Assembly: GCA_017640605.1 (NCBI GenBank)
Contig: JAEPQH010000008.1
Span: 62,001 to 126,000, forward strand
Direction of reading: 5' to 3'
Length of the DNA: 64,000 nt
Origin: Balneolaceae bacterium
Lineage (GTDB): Bacteria; Bacteroidota; Rhodothermia; Balneolales; Balneolaceae
This document shows positions 5,635-62,131 of the stretch, in pieces. Made by a program: the position numbers and the translations under genes. Under the pieces are notes generated by a model that did no database searches, was not told the origin of the DNA, and saw nothing but the letters and a program-made list of their open reading frames with translations. Numbering within the stretch: the stretch's first letter is position 1; each line of letters opens with the position of its first letter.

Positions 5635-6087
5635 ATGAGCGAAGAATCGGCAAAAAAGATAGTCCACATTCATTTGCCCGAGAATGAACCATTTAAAACA
5701 CACTTAACTGCAGGTGATCACCAGTTAATTGCCGATGAACCAACAACTGTAGATGGAGGTGAAGATACAGGACCTGATCCCTACGATCTTTTATTAATGG
5801 CTTTGGGATCTTGCACTGTTATGACCATGAAAATGTACGCTAACCGAAAAGGTTGGGCACTTGGCGATGCGTATGTAGAATTGCGCCATCATAAAAATCA
5901 TGTTGAAGATTGCGAAAATCCCGATAAACCGGCCTCTAAAATTGACCTGATTGAAAAAGAAATCATTCTGGAAGGCGATTTAACCGACGAACAAATAGAG
6001 AAACTCATCGATATATCGAAGAAATGTCCGGTTCATAAAACACTGCTTACCGAAACGAAAATCGAAACCATCCTTGGTTCTATTTGA
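5635..6087 (+). CDS. OsmC-family thiol peroxidase-like protein
   Basis: 150 residues. Both OsmC redox cysteines are present, C60 in MALGSCTVMT and C131 in KKCPVHKTL, so peroxidase chemistry is plausible. Length and the CPVHKTL ending fit the YhfA-like/OsmC branch. It stands alone: 134 bases from the divergent LpxH-like gene, and its last 8 bases overlap the convergent DUF1501 gene. Confidence 0.9.
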   Translation: MSEESAKKIVHIHLPENEPFKTHLTAGDHQLIADEPTTVDGGEDTGPDPYDLLLMALGSCTVMTMKMYANRKGWALGDAYVELRHHKNHVEDCENPDKPASKIDLIEKEIILEGDLTDEQIEKLIDISKKCPVHKTLLTETKIETILGSI

Positions 6088-7690
6088 TTAAGGTCATGCT
6101 TTTAGTCTCGATCTGATTTCCGGTCTGTAGTCGGTAAACATACGTTCCACTCGATAATCCAGAGGCATCAAATCGCAAACTGTGATTTCCTGCATTTATC
6201 CGTCGATCGATCATTGTTTGAATGAGTCTTCCTTGCACATCAAACACTTGTAGGCGAACCGTAGCCGATTGTTGTAGAGTAAATGAGATCGTTGTTACGG
6301 GGTTAAATGGATTCGGATAATTTTGATGCAGCTTAAAGCTTATAGGAGCGGTAGAAGATTCATTATTAACGGTATTCGGGACATCCAAAAACGGCACTTT
6401 TTCGTGATCACTTCCTAATGCCTCCTGTGCATCCTCTTTACTTATTCCAAACCAATCGCAAAGCAGAGTGAGGTAAACCTGACGGAAATCATACTCATGC
6501 TGCATGTTATCAAATTCGTCTAAATCTTCGGCATCTAATTTAGGGTCCTCACCGATTAAGCCGCCCTGAACTGTATCACCAAACACAAAAAGCGGCGCCG
6601 CAGTACCATGATCGGTGCCAGCAGCTCCATTGCTAAATACACGTCGGCCAAATTCCGAAAACGTTGCGATCAGCACTTCTTCAGATCGGCTATCTGCGGA
6701 GAGATCATTATAAAAATCGCTCACGGCTGTACTCAACTCGGTCAATAATGCGGTATGATCCCCCAATTGATTGGCATGGGTATCAAATCCATCTAAAGAA
6801 ACTAAAAATATTTTAGTGCCAAGATTTCCCTTTATCAGTCTGGAGACAATAGAAAGACTTCTCCCCAAATTTTCGGAATCAAATTCTACTCGGTTTGAGC
6901 TTTCGTCATAGGCGCTTTTGATCGACTCTGCATATCGAAATGAATTATTGGCTTGTGTTCGCATGAATCGCATTTCGTCGCCATACACGGTTTCGGGCAA
7001 ACCATCCATCGAGTAAATCACTCCATTCTCAACCAAATATTCTAGGATTCCAACATCGTTTAGCGTCATTCCCATATCCAAAGCATCACCTTTAAAAAGC
7101 AGTGATGATGCCCCGCCAATTTGTACCGCAAGTGGATTATTAGGTGGGTTTTCAACAAAATCAGGATTCTGATTTGCTAAATGTCTCCCAAGCCAACCTG
7201 TTTGCAAGTATTCGTCATGGTCGCTGGCACTTAGCCAAATATCGGTGGATCGAAAATGTGACAGATCACCATTTGGGTAACCTACACTTTGAATTATACC
7301 CATTTTTCCTTCCTCCCAAAGTGGCATCAACGACTGCATGGCAGGATTTAATCCCATCGTATCTGATAAACTTATGGCCTCATTTTTTGCTACCGAAATA
7401 TCCCCTCGATAGTTGTAGTACAAATCGTTCTCGACAGGAACTACGGTGTTTAGTCCATCATTTCCACCGTTTAATTGGATGAGCACCAAAACCCGATCGG
7501 ATTCCAATCCTGCAAGTTTTCGAAATAAAGAGGAACTTTGCAGCGCTTGTACCGGAGTATTTCCTAATACAAATGCACTTCCTGCTGTAAATAATCCCAA
7601 TCGGCGAATAAAATCTCTTCGACTACATAAATCATGATGCTCGTGGTGGTGATGCCCGTCGGCTAAGCTGCTTCCCTTAATCTTTTTCAT
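6080..7690 (-). CDS. DUF1501 exported protein with Tat-like signal and T9SS C-terminal sorting domain
   Basis: 536 residues. The N-terminus has a histidine-rich patch (HHHHEHHD), then the twin-arginine-like motif SRRDFIRRLG and a hydrophobic stretch. The body is DUF1501 (sulfatase-like fold): QLNGGNDGLNTVVP, SLDGFDTHANQ, TFSEFGRRV, GTDHGTAAPLFVFG. Residues about 450-536 are a type A T9SS sorting domain (NYPNPFNPVTTI, GLSSGTYVYRL, final KSMTLIK). It follows the DUF1800 gene by 12 bases, the usual pairing of these families in Bacteroidota and Planctomycetota, whose joint role is not established. Surface export by T9SS is a strong inference. Confidence 0.92.
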   Translation of the reverse strand: MKKIKGSSLADGHHHHEHHDLCSRRDFIRRLGLFTAGSAFVLGNTPVQALQSSSLFRKLAGLESDRVLVLIQLNGGNDGLNTVVPVENDLYYNYRGDISVAKNEAISLSDTMGLNPAMQSLMPLWEEGKMGIIQSVGYPNGDLSHFRSTDIWLSASDHDEYLQTGWLGRHLANQNPDFVENPPNNPLAVQIGGASSLLFKGDALDMGMTLNDVGILEYLVENGVIYSMDGLPETVYGDEMRFMRTQANNSFRYAESIKSAYDESSNRVEFDSENLGRSLSIVSRLIKGNLGTKIFLVSLDGFDTHANQLGDHTALLTELSTAVSDFYNDLSADSRSEEVLIATFSEFGRRVFSNGAAGTDHGTAAPLFVFGDTVQGGLIGEDPKLDAEDLDEFDNMQHEYDFRQVYLTLLCDWFGISKEDAQEALGSDHEKVPFLDVPNTVNNESSTAPISFKLHQNYPNPFNPVTTISFTLQQSATVRLQVFDVQGRLIQTMIDRRINAGNHSLRFDASGLSSGTYVYRLQTGNQIETKSMTLIK

Positions 7691-7702
7691 AATAGCTCTC
7701 CT

Positions 7703-9217
7703 CTACATTAACTGATATTCAGGAAGTTGGCGAAGGTGAGCCATCAAGCCTAAAACCCGCCAATAAGCTCCGCCGTTGTTGATGTCCCACTCATAATCCG
7801 GGATGCCGGCCAATAATATTCCGGGAAGTTGGTTTCGCTCTGTTTCGGGGATGTCTACGGCAATCATGTATTCTGCCAAATCGTAGGCTAGTTGGTAAGG
7901 ATCATTCGGGTTACTCATACCTTTTGCAATCGCAATGGGATCGATTCCATATTCGTCATCGTTGTGATACAAATTAGCCAAGGTAAAATTCCAACGTTTG
8001 GGCAGAGTGGTGGTAGAAATCCAGCTTCGATAAGCCGGCCAGCCTGCTACATTTACCGGACTTAGTAAAAACTGACCCAACTCGAATAACTGGTAGGGTT
8101 GCCAACCACGTAAATCTCCTGCTACATCTTCGCCGGTTTCAATTTGCATGCCTAACATGTAATCGACCGGACTTTTTATCATGGACCCCAGAAAGTCAGT
8201 ATCAAAGAAATGTTCACTTTTCAGCAGTTTGCGAAGTACCGGTTCCAGTTCAAATGATTCTTGAATGAACAACTGAGCTAACTCATTCACAATGGTTTCA
8301 TTTGGCGTTTCGTACACAAAATATTTATAGATTTTTGTGCAGATAAATTGAGCAATCTCTTGGGTACGCTCTTCAAAAATGATGTCGATGGTACCACTGT
8401 AATCGAATCTTCCTCGCCTCCCTAAAAACTCTTTGGTTCCGCCGTCGTGTAAATTTGAATCAAAAATTGATCGTAAGGTATTCCAGTTGAACCAATATCC
8501 CGTGAGAGCACGCGCCATTTCACGAATATCGTTTTCGGTATAATTTCCAATCCCCATGGTAAAGAGCTCCATGAGTTCGCGCGCATAATTTTCGTTGGGA
8601 TTCCCCACTCTGTTCTCAACCCCATCCAGATAAAAAAGCATGGCATCTTCCAGGCCGATATCATGTACAAAGGATTTAAAATTACCCAATGCATTTGTGC
8701 GTAGTGCTGTCACATAGCGATATGCCATGGGTGCATGTTCATATTTGCCGATTTCAGTAACAAAGTGATTATGCCAAAACAACACCATTTTCTCCCGAAA
8801 TGGATGTTCTTTCATCAATTCAGTCCATTCAGTTTGATATTCGATATACCGGTGATAATTATCATTGAAATATTGCAAAATAGCTTCATCACCCTGATTC
8901 CAAGGCGGTCGGGTATCAATCCAGTTAGGTGGTTCGGGCATGGGAGCGTTAATCGCTTCGTCGATAAGTGTGTCTATCAGGGTAGTTGGATTCTGAGATA
9001 AAAGACTTTCTATTTGTGAGTAATGAACTCCGAATCCAAGTCGGCGCATCACATGAAATACACGTTTTTTATTCCATGGCATGGATTCGCTCGGAATATA
9101 TTCTGACAAACCGGAAGATAAACCCTTCGCTCTCTTATTGGGATGGAAGGTTTTACGCTTTTCTCGAGGCTGATGAATTTGCTTTACTTTCTCGTGTGAA
9201 AGGTCGTTTTCGAACAT
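7703..9217 (-). CDS. DUF1800 family protein, partner of the DUF1501 gene
   Basis: 504 residues with DUF1800 signatures: VMRRLGFGVHYSQ, FWHNHFVTE, NENYARELMELFTMG, EMARALTGY, FLLSPVNVAGWPA. No signal peptide is recognisable; the first 45 residues are basic and polar. It is the promoter-proximal gene of a two-gene unit with the exported DUF1501 protein. How a signal-less DUF1800 protein would work with a secreted partner is unclear: it may be cytoplasmic, or exported in complex. The ATG at 9217 is preferred; conserved sequence begins near residue 48, so a shorter start is possible. Confidence 0.9.
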   Translation of the reverse strand: MFENDLSHEKVKQIHQPREKRKTFHPNKRAKGLSSGLSEYIPSESMPWNKKRVFHVMRRLGFGVHYSQIESLLSQNPTTLIDTLIDEAINAPMPEPPNWIDTRPPWNQGDEAILQYFNDNYHRYIEYQTEWTELMKEHPFREKMVLFWHNHFVTEIGKYEHAPMAYRYVTALRTNALGNFKSFVHDIGLEDAMLFYLDGVENRVGNPNENYARELMELFTMGIGNYTENDIREMARALTGYWFNWNTLRSIFDSNLHDGGTKEFLGRRGRFDYSGTIDIIFEERTQEIAQFICTKIYKYFVYETPNETIVNELAQLFIQESFELEPVLRKLLKSEHFFDTDFLGSMIKSPVDYMLGMQIETGEDVAGDLRGWQPYQLFELGQFLLSPVNVAGWPAYRSWISTTTLPKRWNFTLANLYHNDDEYGIDPIAIAKGMSNPNDPYQLAYDLAEYMIAVDIPETERNQLPGILLAGIPDYEWDINNGGAYWRVLGLMAHLRQLPEYQLM

Positions 9218-9350: not shown

Positions 9351-9683
9351 ATGAAGTCTTCTAAAACACTATTGTTCCTCTCCATTATACTTTTTAGCTG
9401 TACCATGTTCGATGGCTTATTCGAGGAGCCCGAACGCCTCTGGATTGAGGTAGCATCTGGTGAACGACAATGTATTCCTCCGGATTATGCCTCGTTGGAT
9501 GAAGCCATCAAACAGCTCGAAGATTCGGGCATCGACGTATTTGATAAAGAAACCCTGGTAGTACCTGTATGCGAAGCTTGTTCTTGCCCAACAGGAATTT
9601 ATTATCGCGCTTATATCAATAAATCCGACCTTGATGATGCTGAAGAGTTAGGTTGGAGATACATACATGATGTCGTCAACTAA
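9351..9683 (+). CDS. Small predicted lipoprotein with cysteine cluster, unknown function
   Basis: 110 residues. A lipoprotein signal ends in LFSC (lipidated C17). The mature part is short and holds a C-x2-C-x-C group (VCEACSCPTG near residue 85) and another cysteine (RQCIPPDY). I do not recognise a family. The cysteines could bind a metal or form disulfides. It lies between the leftward DUF1800 gene and the glutamine-synthetase-like gene, 54 bases before the latter, with no clear operon link. Confidence 0.7.
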   Translation: MKSSKTLLFLSIILFSCTMFDGLFEEPERLWIEVASGERQCIPPDYASLDEAIKQLEDSGIDVFDKETLVVPVCEACSCPTGIYYRAYINKSDLDDAEELGWRYIHDVVN

Positions 9684-9737: not shown

Positions 9738-11090
9738 ATGACGAAGGCAGAAACGATTCGCAGGCTTCAGCAGCTTGAAGTACGATATATAAAATTTGGT
9801 GTTTTTGATATAGATGGAGTGTTGAGAGGCAAGCTCATCAGTAAAGAAAAATTTTTCTCTGCTTTAGATTCTGATGTTGGTTTTTGTAACGTGATTTTTG
9901 GCTGGGATATAAACGATCAATGTTACGATAACACCAAAGTAAGTGGATGGCACACCGGATATCCTGATGCTTTTGCCACGATCGATCCGGAAACATTCAG
10001 AACTATTCCATGGCAACATCATACTCCATTTTTTCTTGCCGATTTTGAATCAGCACCTCAGGTAAATCAAGTTTGTCCACGGTCTTTATTGAAGCGAGTG
10101 CGAAATGAAGCCAATGAAATGGGATTTATGCCGAAATTCTCTGCAGAATTCGAGTGGTTTAACTTTGCTGAAACGCCACAGTCTTTTCATGAGAAAGGTT
10201 ATCAAAATCCAACACCGCTTACTCCGGGTATGTTTGGGTATTCTGTACTACGGTTTTCTCAACAATTTGAATATGTAGACCAATTATTTAATCAACTTCA
10301 TGATTTTGGGATTCCTCTGGAAGGATTGCATACCGAAACAGGTGATGGTGTGTACGAAGCCGCCATCACTTACGACGATATTTTAATTGCAGCAGATCGA
10401 GCCGCTCTCTTTAAAACTGCGGTAAAAGAAATTGCTGCTTCTCACGAGATTATGCCGAGCTTTATGGCAAAGTGGAATCCTGAACTCCCAGGGTGTAGCG
10501 GTCATATTCATCAAAGTTTGTGGGACGAAAATGGAAGCAATCTTTTTTTTGATGAACACCAACCTGACCATATTAGTAAACTGATGCAACACTTTGTAGC
10601 CGGACAATTGCACTGTCTGCCGCACATACTCCCGATGTTTGCGCCAACAACAAATAGCTACAATCGATATGTTGAAGGCTCGTGGTCGCCAACATCTGTT
10701 AGTTGGGGTATTGAAAACAGAACTACCGCGCTGCGTGTTATCAACCATAAAGAACAATCGATGCGAGTGGAACACCGAGTATCGGGAGCGGATGTGAATC
10801 CGTATTTAAGTATGGCAGCTGCATTGGCTTCGGGATTATATGGCATCAAAAACGAACTAGAACTGAAAATTCCCTCTACGATTGGAAATCAATATGCGGT
10901 TAAAGATTCGGTACTACTCCCCGATTCTTTAGAAAAAGCTACCGAAGCTATGAAAAATTCTGATGTCGCGAACCAGCTGTTTGGGTATGAATTTGTAGAT
11001 CACTTTATTCGAACCCGTGAATGGGAAGTTCGTCAGCAAGACCATTCGCAGCCAAATTGGGAAATGAAGCGCTATTTCGAAATCATATAA
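9738..11090 (+). CDS. Glutamine synthetase family ligase (gamma-glutamyl-polyamine synthetase-like)
   Basis: 450 residues with GS catalytic landmarks: SAEFEWFNF (metal Glu), GDGVYEAAI, SGHIHQSLWD, NSYNRYVEGSW, ENRTTALRV and the C-terminal RVEHRVSGADVNPYLS. Length and motif spelling are of the GlnA-like/PuuA group that joins glutamate to amines, rather than housekeeping GlnA. GS enzymes activate the gamma-carboxylate of glutamate with ATP. The amine acceptor is unknown. It heads a tight rightward trio with an APH-like kinase (28 bases on) and a HAD-IIA protein (2 bases after that), suggesting a common pathway. Confidence 0.88.
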   Translation: MTKAETIRRLQQLEVRYIKFGVFDIDGVLRGKLISKEKFFSALDSDVGFCNVIFGWDINDQCYDNTKVSGWHTGYPDAFATIDPETFRTIPWQHHTPFFLADFESAPQVNQVCPRSLLKRVRNEANEMGFMPKFSAEFEWFNFAETPQSFHEKGYQNPTPLTPGMFGYSVLRFSQQFEYVDQLFNQLHDFGIPLEGLHTETGDGVYEAAITYDDILIAADRAALFKTAVKEIAASHEIMPSFMAKWNPELPGCSGHIHQSLWDENGSNLFFDEHQPDHISKLMQHFVAGQLHCLPHILPMFAPTTNSYNRYVEGSWSPTSVSWGIENRTTALRVINHKEQSMRVEHRVSGADVNPYLSMAAALASGLYGIKNELELKIPSTIGNQYAVKDSVLLPDSLEKATEAMKNSDVANQLFGYEFVDHFIRTREWEVRQQDHSQPNWEMKRYFEII

Positions 11091-11118
11091 TTAATTAAAT
11101 CATCATCAGAGCAGAATT

Positions 11119-12162
11119 ATGACTTTTATCGATTTCAATGCCATAGTGAGTGATGCCTGGAAAGCTTACGATAATTCTCGGCCCATCGCTCGCATCGAAG
11201 ATATAAGTGCGAAAGTATCCACCAATCATGTATATCGAATTACGCTTAAAGATGGATTTTCGGTGGTGGCAAAGTTATCGTATTTCGGACTGTTTGATCA
11301 TTTTGTGGAAGATCATGCCATCATTAACGCGATGGCTAACAACTTACCCGAACCTTTCGAAAACTTTCTAGCGCGATCACTTTTTAAAGGGAATGAATTG
11401 TTTGTTCATCGATATCAAACTGAGTTGATCGATGCATGGGTGGTGTTTTACCGCCCGGTAAAAATCCTGAATAAATTGCCTCGAAAACTTGATGAAAATC
11501 AGATTATTCGATTGGGGATGGAAACTGCCCGCTTTCATGAAGCTTGTTTAACCATAAAAAACAGCTTACCCGGTTCTTCAAAAACTATGATGGTTGATAT
11601 CGAAGGATTGGAAGCCATCCTTGAAACTGATGAAGGTCGCTTTCAATACCGAATGCATTTAGATTTTATAAAGGAACAGTGCGCGATATTTAAACAGAAT
11701 TACAGAGAACTAGAAGCCAACACGCTCGAAGACATTCCTGTTTTTGTTGATTGGAACATCGGCAATTTCTCGGTGACGGATGACCTTCAGCTCTTTTCTC
11801 GCTGGGATTACGATTGGTTTAGAGTAAGCAGCCGAATTATGGATTTCTACTTTTTCAGTCGCGTAGTTTCGGAAGCCGGCGATCAAACGATTTTCAGTTA
11901 TAATATAGATGTGCTCATGCAAGATCGTTTTCTGATGTATTTAAAAGCGTATCATCAACGAAATCCTTTAAGTGAACGAGAAATTCTGTTTTTAAAAGAA
12001 TGCTATCGTTTCTTCCTGCTAAATTATGTAGTGAAATATGGCACTTATTTCTTCCATGAAATATTTGCCACACGCTTACAAAAAGAAACACTGGAAGTGC
12101 ACTTACCTTCCATCGAGAAAAAATTTAACCCCTCAATTCTACTCAAAGCTCTGAATTTATAA
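11119..12162 (+). CDS. APH-like phosphotransferase (kinase fold)
   Basis: 347 residues. VVAKLS (K52) is the probable ATP-binding lysine; VDWNIGNF (D211, N216) is the catalytic loop, equivalent to HGDxxxxN but lacking the histidine; RWDYDW (D230/D232) is the metal-binding segment. This matches the aminoglycoside phosphotransferase/choline kinase superfamily, members of which phosphorylate hydroxyls of small molecules. Position between the GS-like ligase and a HAD protein suggests a metabolic kinase, not antibiotic resistance. Substrate unknown. Confidence 0.8.
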   Translation: MTFIDFNAIVSDAWKAYDNSRPIARIEDISAKVSTNHVYRITLKDGFSVVAKLSYFGLFDHFVEDHAIINAMANNLPEPFENFLARSLFKGNELFVHRYQTELIDAWVVFYRPVKILNKLPRKLDENQIIRLGMETARFHEACLTIKNSLPGSSKTMMVDIEGLEAILETDEGRFQYRMHLDFIKEQCAIFKQNYRELEANTLEDIPVFVDWNIGNFSVTDDLQLFSRWDYDWFRVSSRIMDFYFFSRVVSEAGDQTIFSYNIDVLMQDRFLMYLKAYHQRNPLSEREILFLKECYRFFLLNYVVKYGTYFFHEIFATRLQKETLEVHLPSIEKKFNPSILLKALNL

Positions 12163-12164
12163 CC

Positions 12165-13013
12165 ATGGATTACCCCTCATTCTTCGAAATTGCCAAAGAT
12201 TTTCGCGTCATAATGCTCGACTCCTATGGAGTGGTGAAAAATCATAAAGGTTTGATTCAGGGTGTAGAAAAAACCATCGATTGGATCAAAAGCGAAGGCA
12301 AAACCTTTCGATTGCTCACTAATGATGCTTCTCGTAGTCAGGTTCAGCAGAAAGAAAGTCTGGCAAAATTAGGGTTGAAAAACATTGAGCTGCATGAGAT
12401 TATCACTTCCGGAATGATGGCCAAACAATTTCTGGAGCAGAAAATAACGGAAGGTAAAATTGCTTACCTAGGAACCGAAAATTCAGCCGAGTATATTTTA
12501 CAATCCGGGTTAGAGCACATCGCGGTTCGAGATATCGATGTCGAAAATCTGGATGAAATCTCCTGCTTTGTTTTTCTGGATGATGAAGGCTTTGATTGGA
12601 ATAGCGACATTAATAAAACGGTAAATATCCTCCGTAAGAAAACCATGCCGGTGATTCTTGCCAATTCAGATAAATTTTATCCTGTTTCTAATAATGATGT
12701 TGCCGTTGCAACCGGAGGAATTGCAAAGCTTGTAGAGAATATGCTGAACAGAAAGTTTATCCATTTTGGCAAACCAGATTCGCAGATGTTTATGTATGCC
12801 TATGAGCAGTTGGTCGACGACATTGGCTTCATCGAAAAAAAAGACATTCTTATGGTTGGAGATACTTTGGACACCGACATTCTGGGCGGAAATAAATTTG
12901 GTGTACAAACTATGCTGGTTCTTTCAGGAAATACCCGTGGTGATAAAGCACAGCTACAAATTCAGAGTAAAGGGATAATTCCGGATTATATTTGTAAATC
13001 AGTAATCGAGTGA
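12165..13013 (+). CDS. HAD-IIA family protein with variant DxY nucleophile motif
   Basis: 282 residues of the NagD/HAD-IIA type: motif I MLDSYGVV (D19, then S20, Y21), motif II LLTND (T52), motif III HFGKPDSQMF and motif IV MVGDTLDTDILGG. In motif I the usual second aspartate (general acid/base) is tyrosine; a bulky aromatic at this place is known in one hypothetical HAD-IIA subgroup (DxWG). The enzyme may be a slow or altered phosphatase. It starts 2 bases after the kinase gene, so it is almost surely cotranscribed. Its stop codon TGA is the first three bases of the inverted repeat of the next element, so the native C-terminus may have been slightly changed. Confidence 0.85.
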   Translation: MDYPSFFEIAKDFRVIMLDSYGVVKNHKGLIQGVEKTIDWIKSEGKTFRLLTNDASRSQVQQKESLAKLGLKNIELHEIITSGMMAKQFLEQKITEGKIAYLGTENSAEYILQSGLEHIAVRDIDVENLDEISCFVFLDDEGFDWNSDINKTVNILRKKTMPVILANSDKFYPVSNNDVAVATGGIAKLVENMLNRKFIHFGKPDSQMFMYAYEQLVDDIGFIEKKDILMVGDTLDTDILGGNKFGVQTMLVLSGNTRGDKAQLQIQSKGIIPDYICKSVIE

Positions 13014-61147: not shown

Positions 61148-62131
61148 TTAATTTTGAAGGATTTGTTCGATACGATGCTGTTCGTCGTCGCTTAACTCTA
61201 AGTTATCGATGGCTTCAACATTGTTTTCGAGTTGCTTAATGCTGCTTATGCCAATCAATGCAGTAGTAACTGCTTGGTGCCGTAGTATCCAAACTAAAGC
61301 AAGTTGCGCTAACGATTGCCCACGTGATTCTGCAATGGCATTCAAGTCTTTGATTTTTTGTAACAGCTCTTCCGTAAGATCTCCTTTTTGGAGAAAACCA
61401 TCTGGGTCGGCGATGCGCGAATTTTCGGGGATTCCATGCAAGTATTTATTGGTCAATAGACCTTGCGCTAATGGCGAAAATGGGATGCTACCCACACCTT
61501 CTTGCTGAATCACATCAAAAATCCCCTCACGCTCCGGCTCACGATGAAACATGTTGTATTTTGGCTGATGGATAATGATCGGAACTCCCCAAGACTTTAA
61601 CATTTGGATAGCTTCACGCGCCCGATCGGCCGGGTAATTGGAGATACCGGCATACAACGCTTTTCCTGAACGAACAATCTGTTCTAATGCACGCATACTT
61701 TCTTCTAAGGGTGTGTCATAATCCGGGCGATGATGGTAGAATATATCTACATATTCCAGCCCCATGCGTTTTAAACTCTGATCACAGCTCGAAATCAAAT
61801 ATTTTCGAGAACCTCCATCGCCATAAGGACCTTCCCACATCCCGAAGCCTGCTTTACTGCTAATAATTAACTCGTCTCTACGCCCGTGGAAAATGGTTTT
61901 TAAAGCTCGTCCAAATTGCTCTTCGGCGCTACCGGGTGGCGGACCATAATTATTGGCTAAATCAAAATGAGTAATGCCTAACTCGAAGGCTCTTGTTAAC
62001 ATTTGATCTACTTTTTCCAGGGTTTGTTGCCCTCCGAAATTGTGCCAGAGTCCTAGTGACAGTATGGGTAAATAAAGCCCCGAGTTCCCACATTTGCGAT
62101 AAGGAATTCGGTTGTAATCGGGTTTAATCAT
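61148..62131 (-). CDS. Aldo/keto reductase, YghZ-like (L-glyceraldehyde-3-phosphate reductase group)
   Basis: 327 residues from ATG 62131; a start 13 codons further up is open but lies outside family sequence. RKCGNSGLYLPILSLGLWHNFGG, FDLANNYGPP (D and catalytic Y), SSKAGFGMW (K), YHHRPD (H), and the NADPH site near LIGISSIKQLENN are all present. YghZ reduces glyceraldehyde phosphate and methylglyoxal. First gene of a leftward pair with the SnoaL-like gene. Confidence 0.92.
   Translation of the reverse strand: MIKPDYNRIPYRKCGNSGLYLPILSLGLWHNFGGQQTLEKVDQMLTRAFELGITHFDLANNYGPPPGSAEEQFGRALKTIFHGRRDELIISSKAGFGMWEGPYGDGGSRKYLISSCDQSLKRMGLEYVDIFYHHRPDYDTPLEESMRALEQIVRSGKALYAGISNYPADRAREAIQMLKSWGVPIIIHQPKYNMFHREPEREGIFDVIQQEGVGSIPFSPLAQGLLTNKYLHGIPENSRIADPDGFLQKGDLTEELLQKIKDLNAIAESRGQSLAQLALVWILRHQAVTTALIGISSIKQLENNVEAIDNLELSDDEQHRIEQILQN

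Follow-up and report, generated by a model that had tools for sequence, protein, structure and literature searches.

What would join a glutamine synthetase-like ligase, a kinase-like protein, and a phosphatase-like protein in a tight row of genes? The question is raised by a locus of a Balneolaceae bacterium (assembly GCA_017640605.1, contig JAEPQH010000008.1), of which we analyzed the 64,000 nucleotides from position 62,001 to position 126,000 of the forward strand (the window; all coordinates below are window positions). Three genes on the plus strand, each starting with ATG, are involved: GS, a ligase of the glutamine synthetase superfamily (9738 to 11090; 450 amino acids [aa]); KIN, a member of an unnamed family with a predicted APH-type kinase fold (11119 to 12162; 347 aa); and HAD, a HAD-IIA protein close to the Cytophaga hutchinsonii protein of PDB entry 2HX1 (12165 to 13013; 282 aa). 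The gaps between them, 28 bases (11091 to 11118) and 2 bases (12163 to 12164), are those given in an earlier note made from the sequence, and the second is consistent with one transcript. We found that GS-KIN-HAD is a real, conserved unit. With moderate confidence, we read it as a three-enzyme unit of amine nitrogen metabolism, in which GS would glutamylate an amino alcohol, probably of the ethanolamine type, and KIN and HAD would act in the same pool. Which amine this is, what KIN and HAD act on, and which way material flows we infer below.

Conservation and co-occurrence of the three genes

The three genes were counted in 296 genomes of the phylum (the phylum sample), with KIN called at E ≤ 0.001 and HAD at E ≤ 1e-40. 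Matches to GS were divided into orthologs (at least 540 bits) and a remoter GS-like ligase that we call GS2 (300 to 365 bits); both cuts were set after the scores had been seen, and 12 still remoter matches (172 to 246 bits) were left out before counting. KIN was found in 36 of the 296 genomes and HAD in 36, and the two lists of genomes were identical, an agreement beyond chance. A close GS ortholog occurred in 34 genomes, 30 of them with KIN. Five of the six KIN genomes that lack the ortholog hold GS2, and GS or GS2 is present in 35 of the 36. GS lies immediately upstream of KIN in 29 of the 36 genomes (G099 with a small gene intervening); in genome G126 the two sit on separate contigs. Recurrence of the trio in other genomes, on which the earlier note had staked its proposal, was thus found both for GS with KIN and for KIN with HAD.

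The association extends beyond the family of the window. Outside Balneolaceae, GS or GS2 was found in 10 of 10 KIN genomes versus 17 of 260 genomes in all (P = 6e-14), and in a second sample, 129 genomes of the order of G126, in all nine KIN genomes versus 43 of 129 (P = 3e-5); these hypergeometric P values take no account of relatedness. Five of the nine KIN genomes, G126 among them, were already in the phylum sample, and four, including G351, were new.

Gene order was compared in 91 KIN loci: the best 80 of at least 529 relatives on named GTDB contigs, 10 loci from distant genomes, and the window. This set is biased to close relatives, and at least two of its loci seem to come from one and the same genome. 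HAD is downstream of KIN in all 91 loci (87 by frame clustering and 4 by tblastn, 2 of the latter at contig ends). The gap between KIN and HAD was shorter than 15 bases in 56 of 87 loci, with a maximum of 2,225 bases. Among the 84 loci with at least 1,600 bases of upstream sequence, 45 have GS upstream of KIN; the gap was shorter than 15 bases in 26 of these 45, several gaps being negative, and the adjacency occurs across several families. Cultured relatives that carry the full trio include Fodinibius salsisoli (L063) and Segetibacter aerophilus (L076). Inspection of the tight codirectional neighbors of the 91 loci revealed no further partner that recurred across families.

The ligase and its relatives in ethanolamine-type operons

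GS matches the Pfam family Gln-synt_C at E = 1.3e-89, which agrees with the earlier note's placing of the first gene among GS-family ligases. Its closest solved structures are 11zs and 5dm3, and the genome of the window has one more frame above the Gln-synt_C cut-off, on a different contig. GS missed the curated NCBIfam cut-offs for glutamine synthetase (TIGR00653, 201.4 bits versus 429.15; TIGR03105, 218.8 versus 469.6). It also missed that for the gamma-glutamylputrescine synthetase PuuA (NF045547), and on this shortfall, 191.9 bits versus 650, PuuA was rejected; the description "PuuA-like" in the earlier note holds only in part.

The residues for metal, glutamate, and ATP (E137, E139, E200, E207, H256, H258, R328, R333, E345, and R347) are present in 45 of 45 trio rows of the alignment. 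At the place of the ammonium-site flap Glu, E327 of Salmonella GS, stands W316, in 45 of 45 trio rows and in 5 of 5 rows from the operons described below. According to the accessible part of PMC6529630, E327 has its role with ammonium, and the same position is Trp in PauA7 and Phe in GlnA4. GS therefore shows the pattern of ethanolamine-type monoamine ligases, in which the sites for metal, glutamate, and ATP are retained and E327 is replaced by an aromatic residue, and lacks the acidic flap residue for ammonium expected of a glutamine synthetase.

Where GS is not beside KIN, its neighbors are of a particular kind. An ethanolamine-permease-type gene adjoins GS in 16 of the 19 such loci viewed, and in four genomes, as well as on another contig of G126, the order is permease, GS, Fe-alcohol dehydrogenase (Fe-ADH), C26 hydrolase, and aldehyde dehydrogenase (ALDH), the last two being fused in the frame of G033. 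Gene identities in these operons come from Pfam and NCBIfam searches with members from G033, G162, and G126 and otherwise from inspection of the sequences. Both permeases tested passed the NCBIfam ethanolamine-permease cut-off of 381.75, at 438.5 (beside GS) and 440.3 (beside GS2). The remaining 3 of the 19 loci, which we counted as operon type, have neither permease nor Fe-ADH in the locus as available. In the second sample, 14 of 25 further ortholog genomes without KIN were viewed; the permease adjoins GS in 11, and 6 of the loci contain an Fe-ADH. GS2 keeps similar company: of the 10 GS2 loci viewed, 6 have a short-chain dehydrogenase/reductase (SDR), an ALDH, and a glutamine amidotransferase (GATase), 3 of them also with the permease, and 2 have an ALDH without the SDR. 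The same SDR, ALDH, and GATase genes flank GS2 in four of the five KIN genomes that hold GS2 but no GS ortholog. In one family, f18, a gamma-glutamyl-cyclotransferase-type gene adjoins GS in three loci (PF06094 in both members tested).

Such gene sets have a precedent. As far as the accessible part of PMC6529630 goes, the glnA4 cluster of Streptomyces coelicolor contains an SDR, an ALDH, a GATase, and a transporter, and GlnA4 produces gamma-glutamylethanolamide; a similar pathway of ethanolamine glutamylation is described for Phaeobacter in the accessible part of PMC10132767. By analogy, the permease, dehydrogenase, and hydrolase operon around GS would be a glutamylated-ethanolamine route like that of Streptomyces.

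We compared 43 GS rows from beside KIN with the 19 from elsewhere, two long branches being excluded. There were 140 positions conserved alike and none that discriminated between the groups at 90% conservation in each. In the tree, the permease-operon GS proteins (5 rows) form one clade with 12 trio rows (support 98/98), and GS2 is outside. Because of the permease contexts, the lack of a discriminating position, and the Trp for the ammonium-site Glu, we consider GS most likely to be a gamma-glutamyl amino-alcohol ligase rather than a glutamine synthetase. The earlier note had suggested a cycle that includes gamma-glutamylation of a small hydroxy-amine; for the part played by GS, the permease neighborhoods and the lost Glu support it.

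The kinase-fold and HAD proteins and their surroundings

No family in Pfam or NCBIfam matched the KIN protein of the window. Among 19 KIN members, the Pfam APH model gave a weak match in 3 (best E = 0.0091; none for the window member), and NCBIfam gave weak matches only: TIGR03034 (0.00047, 4 members), homoserine kinase (0.0018, 3 members), and PRK11768 (0.0055, 2 members). A KIN profile found no meaningful match in PDB (best E = 0.49). The fold is more telling. An AlphaFold model of KIN (19 rows; pLDDT, 83.6) matched APH-family kinases in Foldseek (best E = 3e-7, probability 1.00) and in VIA-align (Z, 16.6 to 19.6 among the 50 matches listed). Judged by this model, KIN has the APH kinase fold, as the earlier note had guessed.

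K52, D211, N216, D230, and D232 are invariant in 91 of 91 KIN rows. By comparison with APH kinases, we take K52 to be the ATP-site Lys, D211 the catalytic Asp, N216 the Asn that follows it, and D230 the metal Asp. The catalytic loop reads P-V-F-V/I/L/M-D-W-N-I-G-N, with the D, W, N, G, and N each present in all 91 rows; no His precedes the catalytic Asp, and the "His-less" loop of the earlier note is real.

HAD matches the Pfam families Hydrolase_6 and Hydrolase_like, and its assignment to HAD-IIA held up, for the window member, against curated NCBIfam cut-offs (TIGR01460, 130.3 bits versus 100.15; TIGR01459, 104.9 versus 103.75). The second of these families is named only within a list of changed frames in the accessible part of PMC4334477. 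The match to 2hx1 is close (E = 1.6e-93; about 50% identity; TM, 0.95 for the model). T52, K203, D233, and D238 are present in 87 of 87 rows, and D19 is present in all 86 readable rows (one is gapped). Motif I is D-S/A-Y/F-G, and the residue at D+2, Tyr21 in the window, is Tyr in 62 and Phe in 24 of the 86 readable rows, which confirms the "DxY" motif seen earlier. The acidic residues of the last motif point to phosphoryl chemistry that depends on a metal.

Two contigs of Siphonobacter have an open reading frame of 293 or 338 aa between KIN and HAD, which by inspection resembles transposase-associated nucleases. The KIN-HAD pair also occurs on contigs of metagenome-assembled genomes titled Thalassovita and Gemmatimonadetes, where misbinning is probable. 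In the window, a PDDEXK_3 gene (PF13366; 13096 to 13482) lies immediately downstream of HAD; it adjoins the unit in two other loci, a relative sits between GS and KIN in a third, and it behaves as if mobile. Upstream of GS is a small lipoprotein-like gene with several Cys codons (9351 to 9683), which is found in 7 of the 91 KIN loci and had no match in Pfam. Farther upstream are two long minus-strand genes (6080 to 9217; 536 and 504 aa) that by inspection resemble a DUF1501/DUF1800 pair. MenA/MenC/MenE-like genes, also identified by inspection, adjoin the unit in several Balneolaceae loci, which we take for chance. A scan for promoters and terminators gave counts lower than the shuffle means. 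A role in antiphage defense was considered and dropped: a PADLOC search with GS, KIN, and HAD gave no match at E ≤ 0.001.

Possible functions and known systems

How might the three proteins work together? GS would spend ATP to link the gamma-carboxyl of glutamate with a small amino alcohol, most probably ethanolamine or one of its close analogues. KIN may phosphorylate the hydroxyl of that amino alcohol or of the amide formed with glutamate, and HAD may take the phosphoryl group off a compound in the same pool. None of the 26 Balneolaceae KIN genomes has a match to the operon's ethanolamine permease at E ≤ 1e-60, and 25 of them have none to its Fe-ADH at E ≤ 1e-20; the other has a distant match (4e-24). 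The positive controls for this search were G033 and G126. Thus, the oxidative route of the operon is not visible in these genomes, in which other dehydrogenases could be substitutes. Given the missing permease and close Fe-ADH, the unit in Balneolaceae probably handles ethanolamine released inside the cell, e.g., by phospholipid turnover. The family of the C26 hydrolase, PF07722, had matches in 44 of 44 genomes examined from the window's family, most of them other GATases judging by frame length; the best in the genome of the window scored 41.1 bits in a frame of 515 aa. Scores above 80 bits were found in 21 of the 44 (9 of 19 KIN genomes, 6 of 6 known to be without KIN, and 6 of undetermined KIN status), and this spread shows no positive link of the hydrolase with KIN.

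Several observations weigh against our reading of the unit as amino-alcohol enzymes sharing a pool. The name of the permease, a putative one, is an NCBIfam label. The permease is in none of the 91 KIN loci, and a match at E ≤ 1e-60 was found in only 7 of the 36 KIN genomes, three of these seven matches being weaker (in G190 it is on the same contig as KIN, about 14 kb away). In two KIN genomes, G190 and G351, GS2 stands without any pathway gene alongside. One genome, G199, has KIN-HAD and neither GS nor GS2 at E ≤ 1e-40. No upstream GS was found in 39 of the 84 loci with enough sequence, and genes for glutamine synthetases and an Amt-like transporter are found near KIN-HAD: GSII, a small glutamine synthetase (Gln-synt_N and Gln-synt_C in the two members tested), in 19 of 91 loci, GSIII-like genes in 7, and Amt-like genes in 5 (L061, L063, L065, L075, and L082 are examples of such loci), hinting at a nitrogen-assimilation neighborhood. 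Finally, a phosphomonoester phosphatase would be expected to carry a second Asp in motif I (DxD), as chronophin does with D-C-D at the corresponding place, and HAD has Tyr or Phe there.

The last point can be turned around. In LHPP-type enzymes, a missing second Asp goes with a substrate that has no need of a general acid, and we argue that the same may hold for HAD. Tentatively, then, KIN-HAD could be an obligate kinase/HAD pair, so far undescribed, through which gamma-glutamylated amino alcohols of Bacteroidota and Balneolota are metabolized by a branch that works by phosphorylation and replaces the dehydrogenase route. HAD would need no second Asp since its substrate would have a good leaving group (an acyl phosphate, a phosphoramidate, or similar), so that the chemistry on the glutamylated amine would be new.

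The missing permeases suggest an alternative that we regard as somewhat unlikely: the trio's GS would glutamylate some other small amine (an amino sugar, alaninol, or aminopropanol, for example), and the enzyme, with its specificity changed, would have passed into the ethanolamine cluster later. With GS2 outside, the GS of the permease type falls within that of the trio, so the permease context may be derived; the lack of any position that discriminates between the two GS groups speaks against this alternative. In the regulatory alternative, KIN and HAD would act as kinase and phosphatase in a switch that controls GS or other glutamine synthetases by reversible phosphorylation of a protein or a signal metabolite. 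Their co-occurrence throughout the samples is in line with this, the GSII, GSIII, and Amt neighbors fit it equally well, and the structural matches of KIN include the protein kinase YihE (1zyl; Z, 18.6). Most of those matches, with similar Z, are labeled as small-molecule kinases, and those of HAD are mostly labeled as metabolite phosphatases, except LHPP (2x4d); we consider the switch unlikely. That GS and KIN-HAD adjoin merely as members of nitrogen metabolism, with no metabolite in common, would explain the loci without upstream GS and the genomes with a GS ortholog but no KIN (4 of 34 in the phylum sample; 29 of 35 in the order of G126, including those four), but is quite improbable given the retention of GS or GS2 in 35 of 36 KIN genomes, the short gaps, and the adjacency in several families.

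The reading of GS, KIN, and HAD as enzymes of one amino-alcohol pool turns three vaguely annotated genes into a single testable unit, which includes a kinase family without a name in Pfam and NCBIfam and gives a concrete hypothesis for the function of an orphan structural-genomics structure, 2HX1. Should glutamylated ethanolamine be what KIN and HAD act on, bacteria would possess an alternative to oxidation for dealing with a common amine derived from lipids. In the open-licence literature we found no description of the trio or of a kinase or HAD protein in ethanolamine glutamylation, and no functional description of 2HX1; within those papers, a known kind of ligase is here paired with partners for which we found none.

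The single proteins have familiar counterparts. 2HX1, labeled as a possible sugar phosphatase, resembles the HAD of the window and has Asp-Ala-Phe-Gly as motif I. KIN shares its fold and the layout of its catalytic residues with the APH-fold kinases (amicoumacin kinase, NahK, aminopropanol kinase [6ef6], choline kinase, and YihE) but differs from them in having no meaningful sequence match in PDB and no His ahead of the catalytic Asp. PuuA is, like GS, an amine ligase of the GS family and is set apart by the curated score given above. Of the known clusters, that of the ethanolamine gamma-glutamylase of Phaeobacter sp. MED193 resembles the GS operons in its ligase, two dehydrogenases, and gamma-glutamylglycine amidohydrolase; it differs in its TRAP transporter, and a kinase/HAD pair is not mentioned in the accessible part of the paper (PMC10132767). 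GlnA4 of S. coelicolor, as far as the accessible part of PMC6529630 describes it, is a GS-family ligase with an aromatic residue at the ammonium-site Glu, as is GS, and relatives of the window GS are surrounded by a like set of permease, alcohol and aldehyde dehydrogenases, and a hydrolase of the glutamine amidotransferase kind. The content of the glnA4 cluster is matched by the GS2 clusters and not by the trio's own GS group, and in the trio, a kinase and a HAD protein take the place of that cluster's permease and dehydrogenases.

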